This document shows, piece after piece, positions 2,411 through 57,065 of a stretch of DNA of 64,000 nt. The notes under the pieces were generated by a model. That model saw only the letters and a list, made by a program, of their open reading frames with translations. It searched no databases and had not been told where the DNA came from. Positions within the stretch are counted from its first letter, which is position 1; every line of letters begins with the position of its first letter. The DNA lies in NCBI GenBank assembly GCA_004379165.1, contig NKXK01000017.1, positions 46,646 to 110,645 of the forward strand. Reading direction: 5' to 3'. Both the position numbers and the translations under genes were made by a program. This DNA comes from Rhodocyclaceae bacterium (GTDB lineage: Bacteria > Pseudomonadota > Gammaproteobacteria > Burkholderiales > Rhodocyclaceae).

Positions 2411-2438
2411 TTCGATGTTTTTCCCGGTTCGCCGCAGC
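2411..2438 (+). repeat. dispersed 31-bp repeat family, copy A (intergenic)
   Basis: TTCGATGTTTTTCCCGGTTCGCCGCAGC. Confidence 0.6.
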
Positions 2439-2456
2439 AGTCGGGAATTGGCTTAT

Positions 2457-2640
2457 TCAGCCGTTCCGGTGCTTGCCCGGGGTGACGATACGTTGCCGGC
2501 GGCGCCAGCAGGCCGGGGTTTGCAGGGCGGCGACATCCGGCCCGCTCTGGGCAAAGATGGCGCGGGCGCGCATCAGGCGGGCTTGTTCTTCATGGCAGAC
2601 GCCGGCAATGCGGTCGAACCAGACTTGTAGTTGTTTCATG
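2457..2640 (-). CDS. small hypothetical protein (about 60 aa), candidate SOS-regulated
   Basis: MKQLQVWFDRIAGVCHEEQARLMRARAIFAQSGPDVAALQ...; start preceded by CGGAGGATGCAAC (RBS); LexA-type boxes upstream. Confidence 0.55.
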
Positions 2641-2669
2641 TTGCATCCTCCGCGATAGGGGTTGATGTA

Positions 2670-2685
2670 CTGTATGAACGACCAG
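2670..2685. promoter_or_regulatory. near-consensus LexA (SOS) box
   Basis: CTGTatgaacgaCCAG within TACTGTATGAACGACCAGTT; one mismatch to CTGT-N8-ACAG. Confidence 0.45.
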
Positions 2686-2718
2686 TTGTTTTGGTCATGT
2701 CGCGAAGATACACAATAA

Positions 2719-2734
2719 CTGTACGGATGTACAG
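2719..2734. promoter_or_regulatory. LexA (SOS) box, perfect CTGT-N8-ACAG
   Basis: CTGTACGGATGTACAG, 6-bp inverted arms, between two divergent small ORFs. Confidence 0.75.
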
Positions 2735-2793
2735 TATTTTTGTTTTCCGGCATCGCGGGTAGCCTTGGCCGATATTTCAGCAAGAGGCTGCTT

Positions 2794-3006
2794 ATGGCGA
2801 AGATGCAAAAATCCTGGATGCCACCGGTCGGGACGCTGGTGGTTTATGCCGCGCGCAGCCGCAAGCTGACACGCAATGTCCGGGTCGTTGCCGAAGCGTC
2901 GGGCGGTCGGATGGTCGTTGAGGCCATCGGCCGGCAGGGCGTTTGCGTCCGCTTGACGGTCAAATGCGAAAATCTGCGGCCGATGGCACCGGACCTCTTC
3001 GCTTAG
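2794..3006 (+). CDS. small hypothetical protein (70 aa), candidate SOS-regulated
   Basis: MAKMQKSWMPPVGTLVVYAARSRKLTRNVRVVAEASGGRMVVEAIGRQGVCVRLTVKCENLRPMAPDLFA; AAGAGG upstream of ATG; SOS box about 60 bp upstream. Confidence 0.55.
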   Translation: MAKMQKSWMPPVGTLVVYAARSRKLTRNVRVVAEASGGRMVVEAIGRQGVCVRLTVKCENLRPMAPDLFA

Positions 3007-3122
3007 TCGGGGTGGCTGCGGCGTCCTGCAGTGCCGGGCCAATACAATCGGCCAGCCTGGCCTAGCCGGGCGAACTGCCGGCGAAATGCCGGCGAAATGC
3101 CGACATGAGCTGTTGCCTCTTT

Positions 3123-3356
3123 TCAGGCGCCTCGATCACAACCTGCGCCCGGTCCAGGGCATCGATCAAGATGCAGGCCGTCGCCATCACAGATCCACGA
3201 TTCACCCGGATCCAGAAAAATGTCCTCGCCCTGACCGCTGACGGTGATCCAGATGCGTCCTTCTGTACAACGAATGCAAACGCCCCGGGCGTGAACCGCT
3301 GCCAGCGGGTGGTTTTCCTTGAGCACGAATTCTGCGGATGCGTGTTTGAACTGCAT
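3123..3356 (-). CDS. DUF2917-like small protein
   Basis: MQFKHASAEFVLKENHPLAAVHARGVCIRCTEGRIWITVSGQGEDIFLDPGESWIC; characteristic GRIWIT...D..L..GE pattern. Confidence 0.6.
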   Translation of the reverse strand: MQFKHASAEFVLKENHPLAAVHARGVCIRCTEGRIWITVSGQGEDIFLDPGESWICDGDGLHLDRCPGPGAGCDRGA

Positions 3357-3408
3357 GGCTGACCTCCTTTCCTGAGATGCGTCCAGTGTAGAAGTTGCCT
3401 GCGGGACG

Positions 3409-5632: not shown

Positions 5633-5651
5633 GCAGCCCGAGCCCCAATGG

Positions 5652-5706: not shown

Positions 5707-5737
5707 ATCAAAAAGCCGGCAATGCCGGCTTTTTGAT
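5707..5737. terminator. bidirectional terminator between convergent ppiD and fabI
   Basis: ATCAAAAAGCCGGCaatGCCGGCTTTTTGAT symmetric stem-loop. Confidence 0.8.
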
Positions 5738-5759
5738 GGTTTTCCGGGTTCACCGCAGC
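5735..5759 (+). repeat. dispersed repeat family, copy B (3' of fabI)
   Basis: GATGGTTTTCCGGGTTCACCGCAGC; last 20 bp identical to copy F. Confidence 0.8.
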
Positions 5760-5776
5760 CGTGCTGCTGGAAGCGC

Positions 5777-6577
5777 TCAGGCGGGCAGCGGGTCGGCGTT
5801 GCCCAGGGCGACGGTGTTCATGCCGCCATCGACGTACATGATCTCGCCGGTAATGCCGCTGGCGAGGTCAGAGAGCATGAAGGCGGCGGCGTTACCGACT
5901 TCTTCGATGGTAACGTTGCGACGCAGCGGGGCGTTGTGCGAGTTGTAGGCGAGCAGCTTGCCGAAGTTGCCGATGCCGGACGCAGCCAGGGTCTTGATCG
6001 GGCCGGCAGAAATGGCGTTGGCGCGGATGCCTTCAGGGCCGAGGCAGAAGGCCAGGTAGCGCGTGGCCGCCTCGAGGCTGGCCTTGGCCAGACCCATCGT
6101 GTTGTAGTTGGGCATGGTGCGCTCGGCACCCAGATAGGACAGGGCGAGCAGCGAGGCATTCGGGCGGCCCTGCATCATCGGACGGGCGCCCTTGGCCAGT
6201 GCGGCATAGCTGTACGACGAAATATCGTGGGCGATGCGGAAGGCGTCACGGGTGATGCCATTGAGGAAGTCACCTTCGATAGCTTCGGTCGGCGCGTAGG
6301 CAATGGAGTGGACCAGACCGTCGAGACCGTCCCAGCGCTTGGCCAGTTCAACGAAAACATTATCGATCTGTTCGTCGCTGCTGACATCGAGTGGAATGGT
6401 GATGTCGCTGCCGAATTCGGTGGCGAACTTCTTGATGCGGTCTTCAAAGCGCTCGTTCTGGTAGGTGAAAGCCAGTTGTGCACCTTCACGGTAGCAGGCC
6501 TTGGCAATGCCATAGGCGATGGAGTGCTTGGACAGCAGACCGGTGATCAGAATTTTCTTGTCGGCGAGAAAGCCCAT
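5777..6577 (-). CDS. fabI: enoyl-[acyl-carrier-protein] reductase (NADH)
   Basis: [51 protein letters not shown]. Confidence 0.96.
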
Positions 6578-8857: not shown

Positions 8858-10210
8858 ATGGGCAAACGGAAAACCTGGGAAAAACTGCTGTCGAGCGAAC
8901 GCCTCGGCGCCGGCAAGGCGCCTGGGACGGCCGAGCGGACGGCCTTCCAGCAGGATTACGACCGCATCGTCTTCACCTCGGCCTTCCGCCGTCTGAAGGA
9001 CAAGACGCAGGTTTTCCCGCTCTCCAAGAGCGATTACGTCCGCACCCGCCTGACGCACAGCCTTGAAGCCAGTTGCGTCGGGCGCTCGCTCGGTGCCGTG
9101 GTCGGCCGTGAAATCATCGCTCGCCACGGGCTGAAGGATGTCGAATCCGGCGATTTTGGTGCCATTGTCGCCGCCGCCTGCCTTGCCCACGATATCGGCA
9201 ACCCGCCTTTCGGCCATGCCGGCGAGGATGCCATCCGCGAATGGTTCCGTACTTCCGGTCTGCTTGAACGCCACGACTTCACGTCGGCCCAGCGTGGCGA
9301 TTTCGAGCGCTACGAGGGCAATGCCCAGGGCTTTCGCATCGTCAGCCGTCTGCAGAGTCCGGCCAATCCCGGCGGTTTGCAACTGACCAGCGCGGTGTTG
9401 GCGACCTTTACCAAATACCCACGGCCATCTGCGGTGAACGCGGAATTACCGGGAAAAAGCGGCAAGAAATTCGGCTTTTTCCAGCAGGATGCCGACAACT
9501 TTGCGCGGGTCGCCCGGGCCACCGGCCTGATCGAGCGACTGCCGGGAACTGCCTGGCGGCGCCACCCGCTGGCTTTTCTGGTCGAAGTCGCCGATGACAC
9601 CTGCTATCTGATCGTCGATCTCGAAGACGCAGCCAAACTCGGCTTCGTGCCCTATCGCGATGCCGAATGCCTGCTTGCCGACCTCGCTGGCAACAGTGTC
9701 AGCGGCGGACGGCTCGACCGTTTGCATGACCCTAAGGAGCGCATCGAATACCTGCGTGCCAAGGCCATCGGTCGGCTGCTGGAGAGCGCGGCTGCGGTCT
9801 TCCTTGAAAACGAAAACGCCATTCTCGACGGTGAGTTCGATGAGGAACTGCTTGAACAGTCGCCCGTCGCGGTACCGTTGCAGGCAGTGCTCCGGGTGGC
9901 CAAGGAAACCATCTATACCGCCCGCCCGGCGCTGGAAATCGAAACTGCCGGCTTCGAGGTGCTGGGTGCTCTACTGGGTTTATTTACCGATGCCGTCGAA
10001 GCGGCTGCCGGTGTCGATGGCACGCGGTTTACTACCCGCGAACGCATGCTGATGAAGCTGCTGCCGGCGCAATTCCTCGGCCATCACGCCGAACCTGATC
10101 CCGATCCCTACGTGCGCCTGCTGCAGGTGGCCGACTTTGTCGCCGGGATGACCGATTCGTATGCGGTGGATATGTTCCGGAAACTGAAGGGTTTCGATCT
10201 GCCGACCTGA
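8858..10210 (+). CDS. dgt: deoxyguanosinetriphosphate triphosphohydrolase-like protein (HD domain)
   Basis: RTAFQQDYDRIVFTSAFRRLKDKTQVFPL...RLTHSLEASCVGRSLG...CLAHDIGNPPFGHAGEDAI. Confidence 0.93.
   Translation: MGKRKTWEKLLSSERLGAGKAPGTAERTAFQQDYDRIVFTSAFRRLKDKTQVFPLSKSDYVRTRLTHSLEASCVGRSLGAVVGREIIARHGLKDVESGDFGAIVAAACLAHDIGNPPFGHAGEDAIREWFRTSGLLERHDFTSAQRGDFERYEGNAQGFRIVSRLQSPANPGGLQLTSAVLATFTKYPRPSAVNAELPGKSGKKFGFFQQDADNFARVARATGLIERLPGTAWRRHPLAFLVEVADDTCYLIVDLEDAAKLGFVPYRDAECLLADLAGNSVSGGRLDRLHDPKERIEYLRAKAIGRLLESAAAVFLENENAILDGEFDEELLEQSPVAVPLQAVLRVAKETIYTARPALEIETAGFEVLGALLGLFTDAVEAAAGVDGTRFTTRERMLMKLLPAQFLGHHAEPDPDPYVRLLQVADFVAGMTDSYAVDMFRKLKGFDLPT
9429..9450 (-). repeat. dispersed repeat family, copy C (inside dgt)
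   Basis: rc GGTAATTCCGCGTTCACCGCAG. Confidence 0.65.
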
Positions 10211-12115: not shown

Positions 12116-13523
12116 CGCTGTCGTTGCCCGCGGCCGCATCGTGGTCTGCGATACGGCCGCGCGGGCCGGCGGAGTAGCAGCAGGGCAGAAGCTGTCGACA
12201 GCGCTCGGTTTGCTGCCGGCGCTGCGCGTGTTCGAGCGCGAGCCGGCGCGCGAGGCGGCGGCGCTGGACGAGCTGGCTTGCTGGGCCGGCAATTTCACGC
12301 CGACCGTCAGCCTGCAGCCTCCGGACGGATTGTTGCTGGAAATCGGCGGTTGTCTGCGGCTATTCGGCGGGGTGGCAGTGATCGTGGACAAGGCGCTGGC
12401 CGGCTGCGCCGAGCAGGGCTGGACGCCAAGCTGGGCGGTGGCACCGACGCCCTTGGGCGCCTGGTGGCTGGCCTTGGCCGGCGGCGGTGTGCTGGCGAGC
12501 GATTTGCCGGCGCTGGACAGCCTGCTCGCCGGCCTTGATTGCCGCGTGCCGCCGTGGCCGGCCGAGGTGGCGGTGCGGCTGGAAAGCTATGGCCTGCGCC
12601 GGCTGGGCGAGGTCATGCAGCAGCCGGCGGCCGGCCTGCGACAGCGCATCGGCAACACGCCGATTGATGAGCTGCTGCGGGCGCGTGGCGAGGTGCCCGA
12701 TCCGCAGCGCCTGTTTATCTTTCCGGAGCGCTTTTCCTCACTGCTGGAACTGCCATCGCGGGTTGAACACGCCGAAGGGCTGGCCTTTGCCGGCCAACGG
12801 CTGATTGTCGCGCTGGGCGGCTGGCTGCAGGCGCGGCAACTGCTGGCAAGTGCCTGCACGCTGCATCTCGGCCACGATGACGGTACGCAGAGTGCGCTGG
12901 TGCTGCGTTTCGGCGAGCCTTGCCGCGACGAAGCGCGCTTTTTGCGCCTGTTGCGCGAGCATCTGGGTCGGCTGCAACTGGCAGCCCCGGTCGAGTCCCT
13001 GCGCCTGACGGCGGATGAAACACTGGTCAGCGGCGGTGGCAGCGAATCACTGTTTGCCGAAGCGACGGCCGGGGAGGGCGCGGCCGCCTGTGTCGAACGC
13101 CTGCGCGCCCGACTGGGCGAGGCGGCGGTGCAGGTACTGGCACCGGTGGCGGAATATCGGCCCGAGTGTGCGACGCGCTGGCAAACACCCGATTTTCAGC
13201 GAAATTCCGGGTTCACCGCAGCTGCCGGTAGGCCTGCGGATGAGCGGCCCCCCGCTGCTCCGCCACGCCCGCTCTGGCTCCTTCCTTCACCACAGCCGCT
13301 GGGTGAACACGCCGACGGCCCGCACTGGCATGGCCCGCTGCAATTGCTGACGCGCGGGGAGCGGATAGAAAGCGGCTGGTGGGATGGTGGTGAATTCTGC
13401 GCTGAAACCCCGGCCACCGGCGACATCCGCCGCGAATACTTCATCGCCCGCAACCTCCAGGGCCAGCAGGCGTGGATTTTCCGCGATGCTACGGGCTGGT
13501 TCCTGCACGGCCTGTTTGCCTGA
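12018..13523 (+). CDS. imuB: Y-family DNA polymerase-like protein ImuB
   Basis: LWLALHFPCLPLEALPLRQSPSAVVARGRIVVCDTAARAGGVAAGQKLSTALGLLP; C-terminal PLWLLPSPQPL...GPERIESGWWDGG-like region; probable TTG start overlapping imuA. Confidence 0.9.
   Translation: MILPVPEIVLVLWLALHFPCLPLEALPLRQSPSAVVARGRIVVCDTAARAGGVAAGQKLSTALGLLPALRVFEREPAREAAALDELACWAGNFTPTVSLQPPDGLLLEIGGCLRLFGGVAVIVDKALAGCAEQGWTPSWAVAPTPLGAWWLALAGGGVLASDLPALDSLLAGLDCRVPPWPAEVAVRLESYGLRRLGEVMQQPAAGLRQRIGNTPIDELLRARGEVPDPQRLFIFPERFSSLLELPSRVEHAEGLAFAGQRLIVALGGWLQARQLLASACTLHLGHDDGTQSALVLRFGEPCRDEARFLRLLREHLGRLQLAAPVESLRLTADETLVSGGGSESLFAEATAGEGAAACVERLRARLGEAAVQVLAPVAEYRPECATRWQTPDFQRNSGFTAAAGRPADERPPAAPPRPLWLLPSPQPLGEHADGPHWHGPLQLLTRGERIESGWWDGGEFCAETPATGDIRREYFIARNLQGQQAWIFRDATGWFLHGLFA
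13191..13222 (+). repeat. dispersed repeat family, copy D (inside imuB)
   Basis: GATTTTCAGCGAAATTCCGGGTTCACCGCAGC. Confidence 0.8.
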
Positions 13524-13532
13524 GCGCCGGAA

Positions 13533-16500
13533 ATGACCACGCTCCCGGCGTATGCCGAGCTGCATTGCCTGTCCAATTTCAGCTTCCTGCGCGGCGCTTC
13601 GCATCCTGACGAGCTGGTGGAGCAGGCGGCGGTGCAGGGGTATGCTGCGCTGGCGCTGACGGATGAATGCTCGCTGGCCGGCATCGTCCGCGCCCATCTG
13701 GCTGCCAAAGCGGCGGGGCTTAAGCTGATTGCCGGTAGCGAGATGAGCACGGCCGACGGTCTGAAACTGGTTTTTCTCGCCGAAAATCGCGAGGGCTACG
13801 GTAACCTCTCGGCGCTGATCACGCTGGCCCGGCGGCGGGCGGCCAAGGGCAATTACCTGCTGCAGCGGCATGACCTCAATGCCGTATCGCCCAACGGCGC
13901 CTTGCCTGACTGCCTTGTGCTCTGGGTGCCGGGCGCGCAGCCGGCGGTCGAGGACGGGCAGTGGCTGGCTGCGCGTTTTCCCGGTCGCTGCTGGCTGGCG
14001 GTTGAACTGCATGCCGGGCCGGACGACGCCGCACGGCTGGTGGAATTGCGCGCCCTTGGTGCCGCCTGCGGCCTGCCGCTGGTCGCGGCGGGCGATGTGC
14101 ACATGCACGTGCGCGCCCGCCGGCCGGTGCAGGACACGCTGACGGCCTTGCGCCTGAAAACCACGGTTTTCGACGCCGGCCATGCGCTGTTTGCCAATGG
14201 CGAGCGCCATCTACGCAGCCGGCTGCGGCTGGCGCGGCTCTACCCGCCCGATCTGCTGGCCGAAACACTGGTGATTGCCGAACGCTGCCGGTTTTCCATC
14301 GACGAGCTGCGCTACGAATACCCGGAAGAAATCGTCGGCGACGGCCACACACCGAGCTCCTGGCTGCGCCACGAAACCGAGGCCGGCCTGCGCCGCCGTT
14401 ACCCGCAGGGCGCGCCGCCGGCGGTGCGGGAACGCATCGAGCACGAACTGACGCTGATCGCCGAGATGCGCTACGAGGCGTATTTCCTGACGGTGTACGA
14501 CATCGTCTGCTTTGCCCGCAGCGCCGGCATTCTCTGCCAGGGGCGCGGTTCGGCGGCCAATTCGGCGGTCTGTTACGCGCTCGGCGTCACCGAGGTCGAT
14601 CCCGCCCGTTCGGCGCTGCTCTTCGAGCGCTTCATCTCCAAGGAGCGCGGCGAGCCACCGGATATCGACGTCGATTTCGAGCACGAGCGGCGCGACGAGG
14701 TCATCGCCTACATTTACGACAAATACGGCCGCGAGCGCACGGCGCTGGCGGCGGCGGTGATCACCTACCGGACCAAGGGCGCGCTGCGCGATGCTGGCCG
14801 GGCGCTCGGCTTCGAGATAGCACGCATCGACGCGCTGACCGCCTCGCTCGCCTGGTGGGACAAGCGCGAGCAACTGCCCGAGCGCTTTGCCGAATGCGGC
14901 CTCGACCCCGCCGCGCCACGGGTGCAGAAATGGCTGTGGCTGGCCGAGCAACTGCTGGGATTTCCGCGCCATCTGACGCAGCACGTCGGCGGCTTCGTCA
15001 TGTCGCGCGGGCCGCTGGCGCGGCTGGTACCGGTCGAGAACACCGCCATGCCCGAGCGCACCGTCATCCAGTGGGACAAGGACGACCTCGACGCCGTCGG
15101 CCTGATGAAGGTTGATGTGCTGGCGCTCGGCATGCTCTCGGCCATCCGCCGCATGCTGGCCATTTTGGGCGAAATTTCAGGTCGACCGCAGACGATGGCC
15201 GACATCCCCGCCGAGGACGCCGACACCTACGCCATGCTCTGCCGCGCCGACAGCATGGGTGTCTTCCAGGTCGAATCGCGGGCGCAGATGGCCATGTTGC
15301 CGAGACTGAAACCCCGTCGCTTTTACGATCTGGTGGTCGAGGTCGCGCTGGTACGGCCCGGCCCGATTCAGGGCGACATGGTGCATCCCTACCTCAAACG
15401 GCGGCAGGGCAGAGAGCGCATCGAGCCGATTTCGCCGGCCGTCGACGCTGTGCTCGAACGCACCTACGGCGTGCCGATCTTTCAGGAGCAGGTCATGCAA
15501 CTGGCCATCGTCGCTGCCGGCTTCACGCCGGGTGAGGCCGACCAGTTGCGCCGCGCTATGGCCGCCTGGCGGCGCAAGGGCAATCTGCAGCGCTATCAGG
15601 ACAAGCTGCGCGCCGGCATGGCCGCCAACGGCCTGCCGGCTGAATTCGCCGAGCGTATTGCCTTGCAGATCCAGGGCTTTGGCGAATACGGCTTCCCCGA
15701 ATCGCACGCCGCCAGCTTCGCGCTGCTGGTGTACGCCTCCGCCTGGCTCAAGCGTCACCACCCGGCGATATTCCTCTGCGGCCTGCTCAACAGCCAGCCG
15801 ATGGGCTTCTACTCGGCGTCGATGCTGATTCAGGACGCCCGCCGCCATGATGTCATCGTCCGCCCGGCCGATGTGCTGCACAGCGACTGGGAAAGCCGCA
15901 TCGAGGCCGACGGTGCCCTGCGCCTCGGGCTCGGCGAGATCAAGGGACTGTCGCAGGCGGCGGGGGACCGGATCGCGGCATTGCGGCAAGCAGCTGCGGT
16001 GAACCCGGAAAAATGCCGAATTTCGAGTGTTGCCCAACTCGCCGCGCAGGCCGGCCTGCAGCGGCGCGACCTCGATCTGCTGGCCGCGGCTGATGCGCTC
16101 GCCGGTCTGGCCGGGCATCGCCGGCAGGCGGCCTGGGCCGTGGGCGCGGCGGCCCCGCCGCCGGCACCGGTGCAGCGCGATTTGTTTGCTGGCCAAGCCG
16201 TGGCCGAACCGGCCGTGGTGCTTACCGAACCGAGCGAGGGTGAAAACCTCGTCGCCGACTACCAGCGCCTCGGCCACACCCTGCGCCGGCATCCGCTCAG
16301 CCTGCTGCGCGATCGGCTGACCGCCCAGCGTTTCCTCACCGCCGGCGAACTGCCGCACATCGGCGACCGGGCCTTGGTGCGCGTCGCCGGCATCGTCACT
16401 GGCCGTCAGCGACCGGGCACCGCAACCGGCATTGTCTTTGTGACGCTGGAAGATGAAACCGGCTGGAGCAACATCGTCGTCCATCCGCAGCTCGTCGAAA

Positions 16501-23362: not shown

Positions 23363-24439
23363 TCAACCGATCCTGAGTTTTTCTCCATACCCCGCCAGTT
23401 CCAGATAGCCCTCACCGACGGGCTGGCCATTCTCGCTGGCCCGGATGGCACCTTCCCAATAGACCGCGCCGACCGTGCGCCGGCTGTCCAGTTCCTGGTC
23501 ATCGAACAGCGGATTGAGTTCAAACCGGCGGGGTCCGATGTGCAACTGCCAGGCAACCGGGTAGTCGATGCCGGTACGCGGCGAGCGCCAGCGGCGTTGC
23601 GGCAGGAAATCGACCGCTTGAGGCGGGTAAATTTGGTCGATTTTTCCGGTTGACCTCAGCGAAGCGGCGGCCCAGTGTGCATTGCCCCGGGTGTCGCGCA
23701 AGCGGAAGGCCATCAGGCCGCCACCGTCGTGCAGATTGATGCCGACCCAGTCCCAGCCCTGAGCGTCTGCGGGGAGCAACTCGCTGGACCACTCGTGATC
23801 GAGCCAGGCACGGCCGGTCACGGCTTCGGGGCGGCCAGCGAGCGAAACGGACCCACTGACTGCCAATTGGGGGCGGCTGTAGTAGTAGCTTGCATGCCGC
23901 GGATCGGATGATTTGCTGCTGTAACCGCCCTGGCCGTTGAGCAGGGGCGGGGCGTTGGTGGCAAGCTTCAGATCGTAGGCAAAGTCGCTGGCTTGAACAT
24001 TGGTCTGGTAATGATCGCCGTCCTGGGCGAGCCGCCAGTCGCCGATCCAGACCTGAGTGTAGCCCTCTCTGAAGCCGCTGTCGCCGACACCCACGCGGAC
24101 AGCTCGTTCGGCATGACGCAAGCGGCCCAAGGCCGGGTCGGCAATTGCGGCGTGTGCTAACAGCAGTTGGCGCGGCGCAAAGCGGCTGGCGCTGGTCTCA
24201 CCAATGCCCGTGCGCACCCGAAAAAAGGTGATCTGAAAGCCCAGCGGCCGGCCATCACTTCGCCGCAACCAACCGGTGGCGTACCACCATTCGGTTCGGA
24301 AATCCGGATGCGCGCCGAAGTCATTCGGAAACGCCAGTTTGCGCCCGGGGCGAACCGGCGGGAAATCGACCGCGGCAGACGGGCCGGTTAACAGGCCGTT
24401 TGTGGCCGCCAGTGCGAGAAGGAATTGCCGGCGTTGCAT
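23363..24439 (-). CDS. AttH/CrtC-like lipocalin family protein (carotenoid 1,2-hydratase-like)
   Basis: FPNDFGAHPDFRTEWWYATGWLRRSDGRPLGFQITFFRVR; RAWLDHEWSSELLPADAQGWDWVGINLHDGGGLMAFRLRD. Confidence 0.85.
   Translation of the reverse strand: MQRRQFLLALAATNGLLTGPSAAVDFPPVRPGRKLAFPNDFGAHPDFRTEWWYATGWLRRSDGRPLGFQITFFRVRTGIGETSASRFAPRQLLLAHAAIADPALGRLRHAERAVRVGVGDSGFREGYTQVWIGDWRLAQDGDHYQTNVQASDFAYDLKLATNAPPLLNGQGGYSSKSSDPRHASYYYSRPQLAVSGSVSLAGRPEAVTGRAWLDHEWSSELLPADAQGWDWVGINLHDGGGLMAFRLRDTRGNAHWAAASLRSTGKIDQIYPPQAVDFLPQRRWRSPRTGIDYPVAWQLHIGPRRFELNPLFDDQELDSRRTVGAVYWEGAIRASENGQPVGEGYLELAGYGEKLRIG
23631..23660 (+). repeat. dispersed repeat family, copy H (inside attH-like gene)
   Basis: ATTTGGTCGATTTTTCCGGTTGACCTCAGC. 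Confidence 0.6.
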
Positions 24440-31046: not shown

Positions 31047-31958
31047 TCACCCGAGGCTATACTTGGCCTCGGTGGCCCGGCCGGCATCGCCGATTGCGCG
31101 AGCCGGCACGGCGGCCTTTGACGAAAACGCGCCACCGATTACATCTGCCACGCTCAGGCCGCGATTCACATCCAGGCCGATCAGTCGCCAGTCATGCACG
31201 GGCAGGTTCGGGATCGGCTTGATCAATCGTTCGTAGAAGCGCGTCGGCCACACGATGCCGTAGATGCTCTGGTGGTCGAAGAAGTCAACTTCAGCGATCG
31301 CGCCCCGGGTGGATTCCAGACCTTCCATGGTGAAACGCAGGCGGCGCAGATAGTGATTTTCGCTATCGATAAACAACAGGTAACGATCTTCAGTGGCGTT
31401 GCCGTGGCCCGGGCGACGAACGACGAGCAAGGTTTGGCATGGCCGCCCGTTGACGGATTCAGCGCCGACAATGCTCAGACCGGCGTTGCCGTCGAGAAAA
31501 TAAAAGGGCCCGGTGAGGAACATCCGGTAGCCATCGGCGACCAGCGCTGCGGCATCGAGGACGTCGGCACGCGAATCGGCGACCTCGTTGTAATGGACCT
31601 GGATGGTGTCTGGTGTTCGAACTACCTGCTTCCGGCCCTTGGGCCCGGTATGTGACTGGGCCACGATGGGGGCGGGGTTTAAGATGATTCGTTCCTGTGA
31701 TTTTTGGCGGAAATCCGGGTCGACCAGCGTCGGTTGAATCTTGCCGACCAAACCGTGCCACTCGCCGGTATAGGCAACGCTGATGTCGGTGATCTCCCGA
31801 AAAGCACTTAGGCCGTGCACTTCGGCAGATTGCTGCAGCAGGGAGCGGGCCTCTGCCTGTATTTCCAAAGGGCCGATGGGCGGCATGCCGCGCGAGGCGC
31901 ATCCCGACAAAAGGATGACTGAGGCGAGCGTCAGTCCGCGGAAAATATGAAAACACAT
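31047..31958 (-). CDS. hypothetical lipoprotein
   Basis: MCFHIFRGLTLASVILLSGCASRG lipobox; intact 300-aa ORF. Confidence 0.65.
   Translation of the reverse strand: MCFHIFRGLTLASVILLSGCASRGMPPIGPLEIQAEARSLLQQSAEVHGLSAFREITDISVAYTGEWHGLVGKIQPTLVDPDFRQKSQERIILNPAPIVAQSHTGPKGRKQVVRTPDTIQVHYNEVADSRADVLDAAALVADGYRMFLTGPFYFLDGNAGLSIVGAESVNGRPCQTLLVVRRPGHGNATEDRYLLFIDSENHYLRRLRFTMEGLESTRGAIAEVDFFDHQSIYGIVWPTRFYERLIKPIPNLPVHDWRLIGLDVNRGLSVADVIGGAFSSKAAVPARAIGDAGRATEAKYSLG
31700..31729 (+). repeat. dispersed repeat family, copy I (inside lipoprotein gene)
   Basis: ATTTTTGGCGGAAATCCGGGTCGACCAGCG. Confidence 0.6.
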
Positions 31959-32097: not shown

Positions 32098-32742
32098 TCA
32101 GGCCAGGAAGGACGGCAAACCGGGCAATGGGTGGGATTCGCAACCAGCTTCGGCTTTTGGCTCGCCCGGTCGCAGTGCCAACGGAATGACGCCCGCCCAG
32201 ACGCGACGGTCCAGATCATCGTTTTTATCCTCGACGCCCCAGTTGCGGATCTTGGCTGCGGCTTCGGCGATGGGCAGGCGGAGCAGGGTGGTGCCGGCGA
32301 GTTCGGCGGCGTCCGGTTCGCGGATCAGCTCGTTACGACCGATGCTGACATGCGCGATGAACGCGGCGAATGCCGATTTTTTGATGTTTTCCGCGTCAAC
32401 CGCAGCAAAGCGCCCGTAGATGACCACGGAGCGGTAATTCATCGAGTGGCGGAACGCCGAGCGCGCCAGGACCAGTCCATCAAGGTGGGTGATCGTGACC
32501 GCGCAATCGCTATCCTGCAGCGCCCGGGTGATCCGCGAATTCTTGGCGCCATGAATGTAGAGGTAATCACCATCGCGCCAGCAGGCCATGGGCAGGCAAT
32601 GCACCGAGCCCCCGTCCTGAAAGGCGATGTGGCAGAGCAGCGCTTCGTCGATGATGGCATTGATGGTGGCGGTGTCGTAATGGGCGCGTTGCGGCTTGCG
32701 GTGGATTTCGGTGCGTGCGCTGGGCGGGGTGGTGGGGTTCAT
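32098..32742 (-). CDS. pyridoxamine 5'-phosphate oxidase family (FMN-binding) protein
   Basis: ALLCHIAFQDGGSVHCLPMACWRDGDYLYIHGAKNSRITRALQDSDCAVTITHLDGLVLARSAFRHSMNYRSVVIYG. Confidence 0.85.
   Translation of the reverse strand: MNPTTPPSARTEIHRKPQRAHYDTATINAIIDEALLCHIAFQDGGSVHCLPMACWRDGDYLYIHGAKNSRITRALQDSDCAVTITHLDGLVLARSAFRHSMNYRSVVIYGRFAAVDAENIKKSAFAAFIAHVSIGRNELIREPDAAELAGTTLLRLPIAEAAAKIRNWGVEDKNDDLDRRVWAGVIPLALRPGEPKAEAGCESHPLPGLPSFLA
32376..32406 (+). repeat. dispersed repeat family, copy J (inside PPOX-family gene)
   Basis: ATTTTTTGATGTTTTCCGCGTCAACCGCAGC. Confidence 0.7.
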
Positions 32743-32836: not shown

Positions 32837-34315
32837 ATGCTTGACAGTCACCTGCTGGCAGCACTTGCGGCACCGGATCTGACGGGACTGCCGCGCCAGG
32901 AACTTCTCTACAAACGCCTCAAGGCGGCAATCCTCGACGGTCGCTTGCCGGGTGGCTTGCGCTTGCCTGCTTCGCGGCAACTCGCGGCCGACCTCAAAAT
33001 GGCGCGAAATGGGGTAATCCATGCCTACCAGCAGTTGCTGGCAGAAGGCTTTCTTACCGCCGACCGTGGTGGTACGCGGGTGACACAACTGCCAGGCTTG
33101 GCGCGACAACCGGCGATGCCTTCGGAGGCGGTGACGCGTGGCGCCAGGCCTGAATTGTCTCAACGTGCCAGCGATCTAGCCGCACGGGCCGTGACTGGCA
33201 ACGCGTGGTTGCCATTTTCTCCGGGCGTTCCGGATTTGGCGTCCTTTCCATGGGCGGCGTGGTCGCGGGCTCTGCAGCGTGCCTGGTCCGGCGTAACGGT
33301 GCGGCAGTTGGCGTATGCCGAGCCCGGTGGCGAACCGGCGTTACGACAGGCGGTCGCGCATTACCTGGCGGCCCGCCGGGGCGTGGTGTGTACGCCAGCG
33401 CAGGTATTCCTTGTCGCTGGCAGCCAGATGGCTCTCGATGCCTGTGCCCGCCTGCTTGCCGACCCCGGCGATGTGGTCTGGCTGGAAAATCCTGGTTACC
33501 CCGCGGCACGGAATACGATGCTGGCCGCTGGCCTGACAGCAGTGCCTGTGACAGTGGATGAGTGCGGCATGGCGCCGTCGCCATCACTCTGGGAAACCCG
33601 GCCACCTCGGCTAATCTACCTGACACCATCACACCAGTATCCAATGGGAAGTGTGCTCAGCCTCTCGCGGCGTCTCGATTTTTTGCAAAAATCCGCGTCG
33701 ACCGCAAGCTGGCTGATCGAAGACGACTACGACTGCGAATTTCAGCATCTCCGTCATAGCCGGCGCCCACTACCGGCAATGCAGGGTCTGCATCCAGCCG
33801 CCGCGGTGGTTTATGTCGGCACGTTCAGCAAGCTGCTCTACCCGGGCCTGCGGATTGCCTACATGGTCGTGCCGCCGTGGGCCGTCGGTTCGATCGGGGA
33901 AGGTATTGCGGCGCTCTACCGTGGCGGACTGGCCATCGAGCAACAGGCGCTGGCGACCTTGCTCGAAAACGGCACGCTGACCCGCCACGAGCGGCGAATG
34001 GCACCGATCTACCGAGGGCGGCAGCAAGTGCTGCGTGAAGCCTTGACTGAAGCATTCGGAACATCGGCGACGATCACCGGCGGTGACGCGGGCTTGCATT
34101 TGACCCTGCACCTCGTGAATGGGCCGCCGGATGTCGCGGTTGCCAAGCACGCTGCGGCCTTGGGCGTGGTTGTCCGGCCGCTCAGCGAATATGCCGTTCA
34201 GGTGCCGGGGCAGCAGCGCTTGAATGGACTGGTGCTGGGCTATGGCATGGTCGATGCCGGACAGATTCCGGCGCTGGTCCAACGGCTGGCAGCGGCCGTC
34301 TCTCGCGCAGCTTGA
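32837..34315 (+). CDS. MocR/PdxR family regulator (GntR HTH + aminotransferase fold)
   Basis: LYKRLKAAILDGRLPGGLRLPASRQLAADLKMARNGVIHAYQQLLAEGFL; LIEDDYDCEFQ, VYVGTFSKLLYPGLRIAYMV. Confidence 0.93.
   Translation: MLDSHLLAALAAPDLTGLPRQELLYKRLKAAILDGRLPGGLRLPASRQLAADLKMARNGVIHAYQQLLAEGFLTADRGGTRVTQLPGLARQPAMPSEAVTRGARPELSQRASDLAARAVTGNAWLPFSPGVPDLASFPWAAWSRALQRAWSGVTVRQLAYAEPGGEPALRQAVAHYLAARRGVVCTPAQVFLVAGSQMALDACARLLADPGDVVWLENPGYPAARNTMLAAGLTAVPVTVDECGMAPSPSLWETRPPRLIYLTPSHQYPMGSVLSLSRRLDFLQKSASTASWLIEDDYDCEFQHLRHSRRPLPAMQGLHPAAAVVYVGTFSKLLYPGLRIAYMVVPPWAVGSIGEGIAALYRGGLAIEQQALATLLENGTLTRHERRMAPIYRGRQQVLREALTEAFGTSATITGGDAGLHLTLHLVNGPPDVAVAKHAAALGVVVRPLSEYAVQVPGQQRLNGLVLGYGMVDAGQIPALVQRLAAAVSRAA
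33678..33706 (+). repeat. dispersed repeat family, copy K (inside MocR regulator gene)
   Basis: ATTTTTTGCAAAAATCCGCGTCGACCGCA. Confidence 0.55.
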
Positions 34316-36056: not shown

Positions 36057-37214
36057 ATGTTCCAACCTGTTTACCTCGATCACAATGCTACCACCCGGCT
36101 CGATCCGGCGGTGCTGGCGGCGATGATGCCGTTGCTTGAAGGCCAGTGCGGCAACGCGTCCAGCCGCCATGACTACGGTCGTCGGGCGCGACTGGCGGTT
36201 GATGAGGCGCGGCAGCGGGTGGCGGCGGTGGTGAATGCGCATCCGACCGAGGTCATTTTCACCAGCGGTGGCAGCGAGGCAAATAATCTCTTTCTGAAGG
36301 GTGCAGCGGCAACGATGAAGCCGGGCACCTTGGCGGTGAGCGCCGTCGAGCATCCTTGTGTGATCAAGCCAGCGGAACAGCTTGCACGGCAGGGTTGGGT
36401 GCTGCGCGAAATAGCCGTGGATGGCGATGGTCGCGTGCGTGCCGATGATTTCGCCGAGGTGCTGCTGACACGGCCCAGGTTGTTGTCAGTGATGCTGGCC
36501 AACAACGAAACTGGCGTGATCCAGGATGTGCCGGCGCTGGCGTCAGCAGCACGCAGTACCGGTGCCTGGTTTCACAGCGATGCTGTGCAGGCGCTGGGCA
36601 AGCGCGCCATCGATTTCCGCAGCCTGAATGCAGCCGGCGTGCATGCGCTAACGCTTTCGGCCCACAAGGCGCACGGCCCCAAGGGGGCGGCGGCGTTGAT
36701 TATCGACAAGCGTGTCGAGGTGCAACCGCAGATCGCCGGTGGCGGGCATGAGCGTGGCCTGCGTTCAGGTACCGAAAACGTGCCAGCAATCGTAGGTTTC
36801 GGCATTGCGGCGGAACTTGCCGCCCAACGGCTTGCCGAATCGTCAGCTCGGGTTCAGGCGCTTCGTCAGCGACTTGAAGCCGGCTTGAATGAACTCGGTG
36901 CGATGATTTTTGCGGTGAACGCTGAAAAGCTGCCCAATACGACTTACTTTGCGTTTGCCAATATCGACGGCGAAACGCTGGTCGGCAAGCTGGACCGCGA
37001 AGGCTTTGCGGTCGCCAGCGGCTCGGCCTGTTCCAGTGCCAATCCTGAGCCTTCGCACGTACTGCGAGCCATGGGCGTGGCGCCGGAGTTTGCCCGCGGC
37101 GCGGTGCGTGTCAGCCTGGGGGGTGACAATACCGAGACCGAAATCGACCAATTCATTCATGCCTTGCGGGCCACTGTCGGACGCCTGCAGGGACTGACGG
37201 CAATTGCCGTTTGA
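36057..37214 (+). CDS. cysteine desulfurase family protein (NifS-like paralogue)
   Basis: [61 protein letters not shown]. Confidence 0.92.
36911..36937 (-). repeat. dispersed repeat family, copy L (inside NifS-like gene)
   Basis: rc TTGGGCAGCTTTTCAGCGTTCACCGCA. Confidence 0.65.
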
Positions 37215-44864: not shown

Positions 44865-47800
44865 TTGGTTAGCTCGCGTAGCATGTCCTTGACCGCAGCA
44901 ACCTTGTCGCTGAGGTTAGGGCAATGGCGTAAAAGTGAAATTTTATCCTGTCCGGCCAGCTTATAGCTGCGGTTCTTCTGGATCAAATTGATGATCCTGA
45001 TCGGTTCGATAGGCGGATTCTTTGAAAATTCCGGGCTGAACTGCAGCGTGATCTGGTCGTTGGTCGCATCCAGCTTCTGGATCAGCAGCGGTTTGACCAT
45101 CAGGCGCAGGCGGTGATTGGCCAGCAGTGACTGGGCCTGCAGCGGCAATTCGCCGAAACGGTCGATCAGTTCTTCCTGCAGCGCATCGAGTTCCTCGTCG
45201 GCTTCGCAGTTGGCAAGGCGCTTGTACAGCGTCAGTCGCTCGTGCACATCCGGGCAGTAGGCATCCGGCAGCAGAGCCGGCGTGCGCAGGTTGATCTCGG
45301 TGCCGACGCCGAGCGGCTGCGTCAGGTCGACGGCATCCAGCGTCTTGCCCTGCTTGAGGTGGGCGACGGCGCGGTTGAGCATCTCGGTGTACATGTTGAA
45401 ACCGACTTCCTGCATCTCGCCCGACTGGTTGTCGCCCAGCACCTCGCCGGCACCGCGGATTTCGAGGTCGTGCATGGCGAGGAAGAAGCCGGAACCGAGT
45501 TCCTCCATCAGCTGGATCGCCTCCAGCCGTTGCTTTGCCTGCTTGGTCATCGCCTTTTCGTCCTGCACCAGCAAGTAGGCATAGGCCTGGTGGTGCGAGC
45601 GGCCGACCCGGCCGCGCAACTGGTGCAGCTGAGCGAGGCCGAACTTTTCCGAGCGGTTGATCAGGATGGTGTTGGCGTGCGGGTTGTCGATGCCGGTCTC
45701 GATGATGGTCGTACACAGCAGCAGGTTGGCGCGCTGGCCGGTGAAATCGCGCATCACGCGCTCCAGTTCGCGCTCATTCATCTGGCCGTGGCCGATAACG
45801 ATGCGTGCTTCCGGCACCAGCTTTTCCAGCTTCTCGCGCATGTTGTCGATGGTGTCGACCTCGTTGTGCAGGAAATACACCTGCCCGCCGCGCTTCAGTT
45901 CGCGCAGCACGGCTTCGCGGATGATGCCGTCGGAGAATTTGCTGACGAAGGTCTTGATCGCCAGACGCTTCTGCGGCGCGGTGGCGATCACCGAAAAGTC
46001 GCGGAGGCCTTCCATCGACATCGCCAGCGTGCGCGGGATCGGCGTCGCGGTCAGCGTCAGGACATCAACTTCGGCGCGCATCGCCTTCAGCGTTTCCTTC
46101 TGGCGCACGCCGAAACGGTGCTCCTCGTCGATGATGACCAGGCCCAGTCGGTTGAACTTGACGTCCTTGCCGATCAGCTTGTGGGTGCCGATGATGATGT
46201 CGATCTTGCCTTCCGCCAGCTCCTGCAAGGCCTGTGCCGATTCCTTGGCGGTCTTGAAACGCGAGATTTCGGCAACTTTCACTGGCCAGTCAGCGAAGCG
46301 GTCGGCGAAGGTCTGGTAATGCTGTTCGCAGAGCAGGGTGGTCGGGCAGAGTACCGCCACCTGCTTGCCGCCGGCCACCGCGCAGAAGGCTGCTCGCAGC
46401 GCTACCTCGGTCTTGCCAAAGCCGACATCGCCACAGACCAGCCGGTCCATCGGCTTGCCGGATTTCATGTCCTGGATCACCGCCGCGATGGCCTGCGCCT
46501 GATCGGCGGTTTCCTCGAAGCCAAAACCATCGGCAAAGGCTTCGTAGTCGGTTTCCTTGAAATCGAAGGCATGGCCCTGGCGGGCAGCGCGGGCGGCATA
46601 GAGCGCCAGCAGCTCGGCCGCGGTGTCACGCGCCTGCTCGGCAGCCTTGCGCTTGGCCTTTTCCCACTGGCCGGAGCCGAGCGTGTGCAGCGGTGCGGCG
46701 TCGGGGTCGGCGCCGGAGTAACGCGAAATGACGTGCAGTTGCGCCACCGGCACAAAGAGCTTGGCCTCGCCCGAGTAGTGCAGTTCGAGGAATTCCTGCT
46801 CGCCGAGGCCGAGATCCATGCGCACCAGCCCCTGATAGCGGCCGATGCCATGGCTTTCATGAACGACCGGGTCGCCGACCTTGAGCTCGGTGAGATCCTT
46901 CAGCCAGTTGTCGAAGGTTGCCTTGCGCGCGGCTTCGCGGCGGGTGCGGCGCGGGCTGCCGGCGAACAGTTCGGTTTCGGTGACAAAGGCGAGGCCGGCA
47001 AGGGCAAAGCCGGCCTGCAAGGGGCCGACGCCGAGCGCCAGCCGGACATCGCCGTCGATAAATGCAGCAGGGTCGGCACTGGCGGCAATGCTCAGGCCAT
47101 GTTCGGCGAACATCGCGGCCAGCGTTTCGCGGCGGCCGGCACTTTCGGCCACCAGCAGCACGCGGCCCGCGTAGTCAGTGAGAAAGCGCTTGAGCGCGCC
47201 GAGCGGCTCGTCGCTTCTGCGGTCAACGGCGATATTGGGCAAAAACCGGGCAGGGCTGTTGGTGGCTTCGCCGGTGGTATGGCCGATTTTGGCCGGAATT
47301 CCGAGTCGACCGTAGCCCTTGGCCGCGGTGAAGAACTGCTCGTCGGTGAGGAAAAGCTGATCCGGCGGCAGCAGTGGCCGCGCCTTGTCGCCCTGCAGCA
47401 GGTTGTAGCGCGAGCGGGTGTCGCCCCAGAAGGCGGTAATTGAGGCCGCGGCATCGCCATGCGTAACGAGCAGCGCATCCTTGGGCAGGTAATCGAAGAG
47501 CGTCGCCATCTCGTCGAAGAACAGCGGCAGGTAATACTCGATGCCGGCGCTGGCAATGCCCTGCGAAACGTCCTTGTAGATGCCGGACTTGGCCGGGTCG
47601 CCCTCGAATACCTCGCGGAACATCTGTCGGAAATGCGTGCGCCCCTTGTCATCCATCGGGAATTCGCGTGCCGGCAGCAGACGGACTTCCGGCACCGGGT
47701 AAATGGTGCGCTGGGTATCGACATCGAAGGTCTTGATGCTCTCGATTTCGTCATCGAAGAGATCGAGCCGGTAAGGCACCGGCGAGCCCATCGGAAAAAG

Positions 47801-50505: not shown

Positions 50506-50550
50506 GACGCCCGCGCCGCTGCTGCGACCATAAACCCAACGGCTGGCCCC

Positions 50551-50578
50551 AGGGTGAACCCGGAAAACCGCCCAAAAT
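50551..50578 (-). repeat. dispersed repeat family, copy M (intergenic)
   Basis: rc ATTTTGGGCGGTTTTCCGGGTTCACCCT. Confidence 0.8.
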
Positions 50579-50593
50579 TGACAGGGTTGAAAC

Positions 50594-53922: not shown

Positions 53923-53947
53923 TGGCAGGGATGTGAAACTGCCCCTG

Positions 53948-53978
53948 ATTTTGGGCGGTTTTCCGCGTTGACCGTGGC
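53948..53978 (+). repeat. dispersed repeat family, copy N (intergenic)
   Basis: ATTTTGGGCGGTTTTCCGCGTTGACCGTGGC; first 18 bp identical to copy M. Confidence 0.8.
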
Positions 53979-53986
53979 CGCTGCGG

Positions 53987-54313
53987 TCAGGCCGGTAAAA
54001 GTGCCTTCAAGCCCAGCAAGACTGCCATGCCGACGATGAAGGGCAGCCAGGGATTGCGCCAGCGCATGGCGACGAGGATGGCGGCGATGCCAGCAGCCAG
54101 TTTCGGATTGACTGGGTCGATCTGGCCGCTGACGACCACGATGTCGGGCACGACAATGGCTGCCAGCGCCGCGGCCGGGGCATAGCGCAGGGCGCGTTGC
54201 AGCGTCGGCGGCAGGCTGAAGCGGTTGCCGAGGACGATGAAGCTGGCGCGGGGCAGGGTGGTGGCCAGCCCGAGCAGGATGAAAATCAGCCACAGCGACG
54301 CGTCGTAATTCAT
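53987..54313 (-). CDS. azlD: AzlD family branched-chain amino acid transport protein
   Basis: ASFIVLGNRFSLPPTLQRALRYAPAAALAAIVVPDIV; paired with azlC. Confidence 0.85.
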   Translation of the reverse strand: MNYDASLWLIFILLGLATTLPRASFIVLGNRFSLPPTLQRALRYAPAAALAAIVVPDIVVVSGQIDPVNPKLAAGIAAILVAMRWRNPWLPFIVGMAVLLGLKALLPA

Positions 54314-55029
54314 GCGGTTTTCTTCTCCTGCCAGTGTTCGGCGGCAAAGCCGGCGGCGATGCCGAGGCAGATGGCGGTGACGACGCCGAGGCGCAGCGGC
54401 ATGCCGCGCAGCATTACCGCGCCGCCGCCTCCGACGATGGCGGCCACCAGCATCGGCCGCGATTTCGCCATCGGCACCAGCAGCACGATCAGCGCAATGG
54501 TCGCCATGAATTCCAGCGACCAGCTTTTGGGGACGATGCCGGCGGCGAAGATGCCGATCAGCGCAAAAGTCTGCCAGAGCAGCCAGGACCAGGCGCCGGT
54601 GATGACGTAGTAACCGAGGCGCCAGCGCGGGTCGTCGACCTGCATCAGCTTGTCGTAGCAGACGGCGAAACTGCCATCAGTCAGGAAATGGCCGCACAGC
54701 CAGCGCCAGCCGGTTCCGATGCCGCGAAATCCCGGGGCGATGCCGGCGCTGAAGATCAGGAAACGCAGGTTCAGCGCCAGCCCGGTGGCGAGGATCAGCC
54801 ACAGCGGCGCGTTATCGGCGATCAGCGGCAGCGTGCCGAGCTGGGCGGTGCCGGCAAAGACGATGATGTTCATGCCCATCGCCTGCAGCGGGCTGAAGCC
54901 GGCGCTGGTCATCGCCATGCCGACCACCAGCGCCCAAGGGATCAATCCGACCGACACCGGCAGGAAGGCGATGAAACCCTCCCGCACGCCGGCGGTGAAA
55001 CCGCGTCGTTCAAAATCCGTCGCGTGCAT
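54310..55029 (-). CDS. azlC: AzlC family ABC transporter permease-like protein
   Basis: LGLIPWALVVGMAMTSAGFSPLQAMGMNIIVFAGTAQLG-type; FLTDGSFAVCYDKL. Confidence 0.88.
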   Translation of the reverse strand: MHATDFERRGFTAGVREGFIAFLPVSVGLIPWALVVGMAMTSAGFSPLQAMGMNIIVFAGTAQLGTLPLIADNAPLWLILATGLALNLRFLIFSAGIAPGFRGIGTGWRWLCGHFLTDGSFAVCYDKLMQVDDPRWRLGYYVITGAWSWLLWQTFALIGIFAAGIVPKSWSLEFMATIALIVLLVPMAKSRPMLVAAIVGGGGAVMLRGMPLRLGVVTAICLGIAAGFAAEHWQEKKTA

Positions 55030-55040
55030 TGTTTGACGCT

Positions 55041-55071
55041 GCTGCGGTCAACCCGGAAAAGCGGCCAAAAT
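55041..55071 (-). repeat. dispersed repeat family, copy O (intergenic)
   Basis: rc ATTTTGGCCGCTTTTCCGGGTTGACCGCAGC. Confidence 0.85.
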
Positions 55072-55073
55072 GC

Positions 55074-56309
55074 TCATTGCTCCGCCGCCGGTTTCGGCAG
55101 CAGGAAATTGAGCGCCACCGCCAGCACGCCGCACAGGCTGATGCCCTGCAGCGAGAAGCTGCCGATATGCACGCCGAGGCCACCGATGCCGGTGACCAGC
55201 GTCACCGAGACGATGCACAGGTTGCGCGGGCTGGCGAGATCGACCTTGGCGTCCATCAGCGTCTTCAGGCCGATGCCGGCAATCGAGCCGAAGAGCAGGA
55301 CCATGATGCCGCCCATCACCGGCATCGGGATGGTCTGCAGCAGCGCGCCGAACTTGCCGACGAAGGCCATCAGGATGGCGAAGCCGGCGGCCCAGGTCAT
55401 GATCGCCGGGTTGTAGTTCTTGGTCAGCATCACCGCGCCGGTGACTTCGCCGTAGGTGGTGACCGGCGGGCCGCCGAAGAGGCCGACCACGTTCACCGCC
55501 AGCCCGTCGCCGAACAGCGTGCGGTGCAGGCCGGGGCTGTCGGTGTAGTCCTTGCCAGAGACCGAGCCGATGGCGAGAATGCCGCCGACGTGTTCGACAA
55601 TCGGCGCAATTGCCACCGGGATCATGAACAGGATCGCGGCGAGGTTGAATTCCGGCTTGCCGAACTCAGGGATGGCGATCCACGCGGCGTTGGTGACCTT
55701 GCTGAAATCGACGATGCCGACGAACAGCGAGGCAATGTAGCCGACGGCGACGCCGACAAGGATCGGTACCAGCTTGAGCAGGCCGCGGGCGCGGATGGCG
55801 GTCAGCATGGTCGCCAGCAGCGAGATCGCGGCAATGGCAATCGCCGTTTCGTAAGGCACAACCTGTGCGTCGCCGGCTTTACCGGTGGCCATGTTGACCG
55901 CCACTTGTGCCAGTCCGAGGCCGATGACCATCACCACCGGGCCGATGACGACTGGCGGCAGCAGGCGGTGGATGAAATCGACACCACGCCATTTCACCAG
56001 GCCGGCGGCGACGTAATAGAAGAAGCTGGCGGCGGCCAGCGCGCCGAGCGTCGCCGGCATGCCCCAGGTCTGCACCGAGTAGATCACCGGGGCGATGAAG
56101 GCGAAGCTGGAGCCGAGGTAGATCGGCACCTGGCGCTTGGTGCATAGCTGGAAGATCAGCGTGCCGACGCCGGCGCCGAGCAGCGCCAGGCTGGGGTTGA
56201 GGCCGGTCAGCAGCGGCACCAGCACGGTGGCGCCGAAGGCGACAAAGAGAATCTGGGCACCGGACAGCGCGGTGCGCCAGGTCGGTTCGTGGGCGTAAGC
56301 AGTCATCAC
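55074..56309 (-). CDS. uraA: uracil permease / xanthine-uracil symporter
   Basis: [48 protein letters not shown]; adjacent to upp. Confidence 0.9.
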
Positions 56310-56938
56310 GCCTCCTTGGTGCCGAAGATCTTGTCGCCGGCATCGCCGAGGCCGGGGATGATGTAGCCGACTTCATTGAGATGGCTGTCGACGGCGGCGG
56401 TGTAGAGCTGCACGTCGGGATGCGCGGCGGTGAGTGCCGCGATGCCTTCCGGCGCCGCCACCAACACCAGCGCCTTGATGTGCTTGCAGCCATTGCGCTT
56501 GAGCATGTCGATGGTGGCGATCAGCGAGCCGCCGGTGGCCAGCATCGGGTCGATGATCATTGCCAAGCGTTCGTCGAGCTGGCCGACGAAGCGCTCGAAA
56601 TACGGCTCCGGCATCAGCGTGTCGTGGTTGCGGGCGATGCCGACGACGCTGACCTTGGCATTCGGGATCAGGTCGAGGACGCCGTCGAGCATGCCGAGGC
56701 CGGCGCGCAGGATGGGCACGACGGTGACCTTCTTGCCCTTGATCTGGTCGATCTCAACCGGACCGGCCCAGCCGGCGAGGGTGACCTTTTCCAGCTCGAA
56801 ATCGGCGCAGGCCTCGTAGGTGAGCAGGCGGGCGACTTCGGCCGTCAGCTCGCGGAATTTCTTGGTGCTGATGTCGCCTTCGCGCATCAGGCCGATCTTG
56901 TGTTTGACGAGAGGGTGTTTGACTTCGATGACCGGCAT
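56306..56938 (-). CDS. upp: uracil phosphoribosyltransferase
   Basis: [58 protein letters not shown]. Confidence 0.97.
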
Positions 56939-57033
56939 GGCTGTTCCCGGGAGTGTTTTTTACGGAAGCCGCAAGGGTAGCCGAAAGCGCCCAATGCCGC
57001 ACTTCGGGATTTCACGTGCCGCAGGCGCCGGCA

Positions 57034-57065
57034 ACTGCGGTCAACGCGGAATATGCAGCGAAAAC
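57034..57065 (-). repeat. dispersed repeat family, copy P (spans stop codon of hydrolase gene)
   Basis: rc GTTTTCGCTGCATATTCCGCGTTGACCGCAGT. Confidence 0.65.

Follow-up and report, generated by a model that had tools for sequence, protein, structure and literature searches.

A dispersed motif with the character of an uptake signal sequence in a genus of Rhodocyclaceae

Why should the same short sequence recur every few kilobases in a bacterial chromosome, inside genes as well as between them? The question is raised by a 64,000-nucleotide stretch of a Rhodocyclaceae bacterium (assembly GCA_004379165.1, contig NKXK01000017.1, positions 46,646 to 110,645), analyzed here as a whole and called the window. 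A sequence-only reading of this DNA had noticed a repeat family of about 31 bp and left its function open among an uptake signal, a nucleoid or architectural site, and a non-autonomous mobile element. Our comparisons strongly favor the first of these: the repeats probably serve as uptake signal sequences in natural transformation. They contradict the mobile element, since coding copies mostly align without gaps and the motif forms neither a palindrome nor a stable fold; that the repeat is not a clean palindrome had been noted from the start. The best reading of the sequence data is a third, undescribed uptake-sequence system, in addition to the uptake signal sequences (USS) of Pasteurellaceae and the DNA uptake sequences (DUS) of Neisseriaceae.

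The assembly that contains the window has 3.06 Mb in 44 contigs and is 95% complete. An 18-bp core, TYCSGSGTYSACCGCAGC, allowed up to 1 mismatch, was found 243 times in the 3.06 Mb (122 on the plus strand, 121 on the minus strand), compared to 1 match for the reversed pattern. One fourth-order Markov sequence and reversed-pattern controls served as nulls. A 34-column profile was applied to 864 kb of the genome (the window plus 800 kb, or 28% of the total), where 269 sites scored above 15 bits and formed a separate peak of scores; the Markov null yielded 0. The density was 1 site per 3.2 kb, which extrapolates to about 950 per genome. The sequence-only reading had described the family as dispersed, present on both strands and too frequent for chance, and the counts agree on each point, being far above the composition-matched null.

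The consensus in the direction of the sequence-only reading is GATTTTgGCC-nn-TTTTCCGSGTTSACCGCAGCmG and in the other direction TGCGGTSAACSCGG-AAAA-n6-AAAAT; written as its reverse complement, the 34-bp motif is TGCGGTSAACSCGGAAAA-N6-AAAAT. Core positions GT..ACCG were conserved at 95-99%. Two A/T tracts were conserved as A/T without a fixed sequence, and the bases separating them were loose. When sites in this genome were anchored on GCGGTSRAC alone, AT content had two peaks, about 11 bp apart; counted from the first G, they lay approximately 13-16 and 24-27 bases away. When sites were chosen by their AT tracts only, 71 had a perfect core, 28 had 1 mismatch and 12 had 2 mismatches (0, 0.7 and 6, respectively, at control offsets). 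Perfect cores thus outnumbered singly mismatched ones, as they do in DNA uptake sequences.

Coding and non-coding DNA were separated with a simple codon-usage gene caller, and the numbers are approximate. Of the 269 sites, 149 lay inside predicted genes, 21 straddled gene ends and 99 were outside, in DNA that is 83% coding. The motif was therefore enriched outside genes even though more than half of the copies (about 55%) were genic and about 45% were wholly or partly outside. Coding copies occurred in either orientation and in all six phases. An intrinsic terminator, or some other signal acting at the RNA level, could account for the intergenic enrichment; stems might be formed by a small number of inverted pairs, and one copy in the window, at 5728, abuts a terminator-like hairpin. 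However, most copies are single and genic, in either orientation and every reading phase, and single copies folded no better than shuffles, so that, taken over the entire family, this explanation is contradicted and extremely improbable. A terminator role may be a secondary use of motif pairs, as in USS and DUS.

Copies were spaced more evenly than random, with a coefficient of variation of 0.75 and 33 gaps of 100-1000 bp compared to 65 expected. Seven pairs were less than 100 bp apart, every one in opposite orientation. In four of the seven, the two copies overlap at exactly 17 bp and have their AT tracts in common, giving a near-palindrome of about 51 bp (C35:116828-116878, C35:159209, C21:80848 and C21:88087). 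Each 10-kb bin with a GC content above 0.57 held at least 1 copy. One 20-kb stretch with a GC content of 0.55 and foreign codon usage held zero, and from its composition this stretch looks like recently acquired DNA. Orientation relative to GC skew showed a marginal tendency (151 vs. 118), and no replichore polarity beyond it was found. One contig of the genome (C11, L038-L051) had a strand bias of 27 plus to 54 minus over 280 kb, present in each 40-kb bin. A polar replication motif, similar to the FtsK-orienting polar sequences (KOPS), was considered and rejected, the strands being balanced overall (122 and 121) and the skew marginal. Carriage by phages was rejected as well, with only 13 exact matches to the 18-bp core in 2.9 million viral contigs.

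How the coding copies arose bears directly on the mobile element, a non-autonomous repeat that would have spread by copying in the manner of repetitive extragenic palindromic (REP) sequences, bacterial interspersed mosaic elements (BIME) or Rickettsia palindromic elements (RPE). For 24 coding copies a relative could be aligned, and 20 were free of gaps across the motif compared to the closest relative. The residues encoded by the motif had 58% amino acid identity to the relative, compared to 73% in the flanks. In dnaE2, for example, SMLSETTGRRWH of the relative corresponds to AILGEISGRPQT at the motif, the length being unchanged. Gap-free alignment together with lowered identity at the motif shows that it mostly overwrote codons in place; most coding copies thus came about by substitution of existing codons rather than by insertion. 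Nor are the copies simply conserved protein motifs, an outcome that would have undone the sequence-only reading. Redfield and colleagues obtained a similar outcome from a gap test on homologues when arguing that USS are not insertions (PMC1626085). In favor of a mobile element are the hundreds of near-identical, dispersed copies, a likeness to REP/BIME and RPE (the last also found in genes), and one copy in dnaE2 at a place where relatives are without approximately 7 residues. Yet the motif is neither palindromic, nor confined to extragenic DNA, nor apparently spread by transposition, as REP/BIME are; it is mostly not inserted, has no stable hairpin, and is evenly spaced instead of clustered, and its dialects have shifted genome-wide in relatives. 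Spread as a mobile element is contradicted by these observations and is highly unlikely.

The uptake signal reading was compared with the two known systems. Both USS and DUS lie on both strands with regular spacing and close inverted pairs, originate by mutation, prefer non-coding DNA while having many genic copies, and have a consensus stronger than that of regulatory sites; USS also have AT tracts (PMC1626085). All of the traits given there were looked for, and the Rhodocyclaceae motif has every one. The inner core of USS is GCGG (PMC12616744), and GCGG or GCGGT is common to the motif and to both Pasteurellaceae types (Hin, AAGTGCGGT; Apl, ACAAGCGGT). In USS, too, the core is followed on its 3' side by a pair of AT-rich tracts at a spacing of about one helical turn (12 bp in Hin-USS compared to 11 bp here), and further likenesses are the placement on both strands, even spacing, genic copies with intergenic enrichment, substitutive origin, strong consensus and dialects (PMC1626085, PMC12616744). 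The differences are also clear. The full 9-bp core AAGTGCGGT or ACAAGCGGT is absent from the motif, whose upstream bases are CTGCTGCGGT and whose core extends as GCGGTSRAC rather than starting AAGTGCGGT. Counted from the first G of GCGG, the first AT tract lies 13 bp away here, but in USS it is just 3' of the core, and the host is a betaproteobacterium (Rhodocyclaceae), not a member of Pasteurellaceae. Common descent with the Pasteurellaceae USS is unlikely. Neisseriaceae DUS (GCCGTCTGAA and its dialects) are from the same class as the host (Betaproteobacteria in the older sense) and, like the motif, have genome-wide dialects; the host also has a pilin of the ComP_DUS family, a family widespread in motif-free genomes. 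However, DUS are 10- to 12-mers that lack flanking AT tracts and have CTG as an invariant core, and neither is true here. The motif's layout is closer to that of Pasteurellaceae USS than to the DUS of the host's own class. Because the bases flanking the core, the distance from core to tract and the lineage all differ, we classed the motif as a sequence that would work like an uptake sequence, and not as a USS or a DUS.

Relatives were searched for the motif and its variants, in assemblies of the metagenome type. Among named sequences, Azonexus and other Rhodocyclaceae metagenome assemblies gave the closest matches to the DnaE2 of the window. In four congeners, a profile-free count of over-represented 10-mers ranked TGCGGTCGAC, CGCGGTCGAC or TGCGGTCAAC highest or nearly so, and the over-represented words included GCGGTCGAC/GCGGTCAAC; a parS-like word, CACGTGAAAC, also ranked high in two of the four. 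Each congener had its own dialect: GCGGT was preceded by C or T and followed by CGAC or CAAC, and the distal tract was AAAAT or AATTT. In these dialects the two AT tracts lay close to the register seen in the window's genome, with a spacing of about 11 bp. Using a dialect-tolerant pattern, GCGGTSRACN{13,15}AAWWT, and a grouping of our own into rich, intermediate and poor, we found that, of 61 genomes sampled from the genus, 29 had 71-441 matches, six had 22-40 and 26 had 0-18; the reversed control gave 0-4. Rich genomes were clustered on a glmU tree, but some fell on either side of the tree, a pattern consistent with a motif that was present in the ancestor and later lost in places. In other genera of the family, from which 147 genomes were sampled, a stricter pattern had only 0-3 matches, and in other families of the order matches were about equal to the control. 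No clear AT-phased GCGGTSRAC motif was seen in two motif-poor congeners (G344 and G258) and no motif in two genomes from other genera of Rhodocyclaceae (G190 and G288), the latter of which also had no notable over-represented 10-mers.

Other word families emerged from the same counts. In one congener (G035, L158-L167), a CTCTGCGTCT / AGGCGCAGAG repeat family came first among over-represented 10-mers, ahead of the uptake-like motif. G190 had a different 10-mer family around AAAAGTCGGCGCTGGCGGGACGGCA, with 11-31 copies in 140 kb (L220-L226), which is possibly another repeat or uptake-like motif. In G258 (L290-L299), ACAGCTTCACCTA / ACTACAACGGC words were strongly over-represented and probably derive from a large repetitive protein gene or array.

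These distributions also bear on the main competing explanation, that an abundant chromosomal protein, such as a nucleoid organizer or condensin-like loader, binds the copies and that selection keeps them for chromosome architecture. Dense, regular placement on both strands is what such sites could show, and the AT-tract layout would suit a bending protein. However, coding sequence has been overwritten at a cost in protein similarity, and an excess of perfect over singly mismatched cores is unusual for intracellular sites, as argued in PMC1626085. Replichore polarity did not exceed the marginal 151 vs. 118, the motif is missing from nearly half of the genus, and it is absent from the low-GC stretch that looks recently acquired. 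Taken together, these data make a chromosomal-protein site unlikely.

The genome encodes ComEC, DprA and ComEA, and in a run of pilin genes adjoining glmU, a pilin of the ComP_DUS family neighbors one of the GspH/FimT type. One ComP_DUS-family pilin scored over the cut-off in this genome. FimT matters for DNA uptake in Legionella (PMC12616744). The ComP_DUS family was rejected as a marker of the motif, being present in most motif-free families of the order. ComEC was found in 37 of 41 genomes, with broken frames in a few motif-poor genomes (G018, G036) and a broken or split frame in a motif-rich one (G008), so nothing follows from comEC as a correlate of motif richness. The copies could also be relics of a system that once worked in a strain that no longer takes up DNA. 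The 22-40 copies in six congeners and the near absence in 26 suggest repeated loss; against this, perfect cores still outnumber those with a single mismatch in the window's genome, and its comEC, dprA and comEA frames are open. We regard relic signals as very unlikely here.

The reading of the motif as an uptake signal is strongly favored by the combination of substitutive origin, strong consensus, even spacing, both strands, dialects, USS-like layout and competence genes. Several observations weigh on the other side. An alignment gap occurred at 4 of the 24 coding sites (17%), compared to 5.6% of random windows, in what is a small sample, and a minority of copies, including the second copy in dnaE2, may have come with an indel. 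The motif is about 3-fold less dense than the uptake sequences of Haemophilus and Neisseria, which occur roughly once per kb (PMC1626085). Competence genes and pilins of the ComP_DUS family are found in many genomes, motif-free ones among them, and therefore do not discriminate; among the 41 genomes, motif-poor ones showed no clean loss of comEC. Finally, in open-licence PMC papers we found none on uptake signals in Rhodocyclales, Dechloromonas or Azonexus, and none with the motif sequence. On balance, a third origin of sequence-specific self-DNA uptake seems likely, in this Rhodocyclaceae genus, with convergence on the Pasteurellaceae layout, several dialects and repeated losses.

A mechanism can be proposed. 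A DNA receptor on the cell surface, probably a type IV minor pilin, would bind the core TGCGGT(S)(R)AC, and the pair of A/T tracts 3' of the core, spaced by one helical turn, could ease bending or melting of the DNA while the pilus draws it through the secretin. ComEA, ComEC and DprA would then bring the strand in for recombination. If entry is more frequent for fragments that bear a good signal, any point mutation improving a site could spread by biased uptake and recombination, and copies would accumulate by substitution genome-wide, on both strands, in genes and between them. A third independent case, if true, would reveal what is essential to uptake signals: a GCGGT core with two phased AT tracts, if shared by unrelated lineages, would suggest that the uptake machine has a mechanical need for them. 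Because a single genus includes rich, intermediate and poor genomes as well as several dialects, the cause of uptake bias (choice of kin or by-product of receptor preference) could be tested, and co-evolution of receptor and signal could be followed at the scale of species.

Copies in the window were rescored with the 34-column profile (position weight matrix, PWM) built from the genome, at the cut-off of 15 bits above which the null had no sites. Of the 17 copies that had been listed from the letters, 16 were recovered at 19.8-44.7 bits, a few bases off the positions given; the remaining one, 19371 on the minus strand, is doubtful at 12.6 bits. Three weaker candidates had also been named, and one of them, 11551, proved sound (33.8 bits at 11541-11574), whereas 45026 (-4.8 bits) and 48373 (-12.8 bits) did not. 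One copy had been overlooked, 47214-47247 on the minus strand (34.5 bits), 71 bp from the 47285 copy in the same gene. The window thus holds 18 good copies, as follows (PWM score in bits; ORF, open reading frame; PLP, pyridoxal phosphate; MFS, major facilitator superfamily).

2407..2440, plus strand, 32.9: intergenic, downstream of a purL-like gene (33-2294)
5728..5761, plus strand, 36.8: intergenic, between convergent ppiD-like (3746-5632, plus) and fabI-like (5777-6577, minus) genes
9426..9459, minus strand, 33.6: within a gene (8858-10210, plus); gap-free compared to relative L143
11541..11574, plus strand, 33.8: within an imuA-like ORF (11375-12115, plus)
13191..13224, plus strand, 40.7: within an imuB-like ORF (frame of 11694-13523, plus)
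15161..15194, plus strand, 38.9: within a dnaE2-like DNA polymerase III alpha gene (13533-16652, plus); gap-free compared to the closest relative
15991..16024, minus strand, 43.0: within the same dnaE2-like gene (13533-16652, plus); approximately 7 residues there are absent from relatives
23629..23662, plus strand, 32.8: in an uncertain ORF (23363-24559, minus)
31699..31732, plus strand, 19.8: weaker copy, in an ORF (31047-32219, minus)
32375..32408, plus strand, 31.3: within a pyridoxamine-phosphate-oxidase-like gene (32098-32742, minus)
33677..33710, plus strand, 28.2: within a PLP aminotransferase-domain gene (32837-34315, plus)
36907..36940, minus strand, 28.7: within a class-V aminotransferase gene (36057-37214, plus); gap-free compared to relative L081
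47214..47247, minus strand, 34.5: within mfd (44861-48331, minus)
47285..47318, plus strand, 37.1: within mfd (44861-48331, minus), in opposite orientation to the preceding copy
50546..50579, minus strand, 27.3: intergenic, between malonyl-CoA decarboxylase and MFS genes
53947..53980, plus strand, 40.2: intergenic
55039..55072, minus strand, 44.7, the top score of the window: intergenic, between azlC-like and permease genes
57032..57065, minus strand, 31.5: 3' end of an ORF (57041-57709, minus)

The distal T-tract of the 5728..5761 copy doubles as the T-run of the hairpin AAAAAGCCGGCaatGCCGGCTTTTT. The dnaE2-like gene and mfd, with two copies each, are DNA-repair genes by their Pfam domains; two further ORFs, which have no Pfam hit, are presumably imuA and imuB, judging by their position. 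DUS are reported to be biased to genome-maintenance genes, a bias that the copies in the repair-like genes of the window bring to mind. Within the window, these apparent DNA-repair genes (imuA-, imuB- and dnaE2-like, and mfd; 11375-16652 and 44861-48331) hold 6 of the 18 copies.

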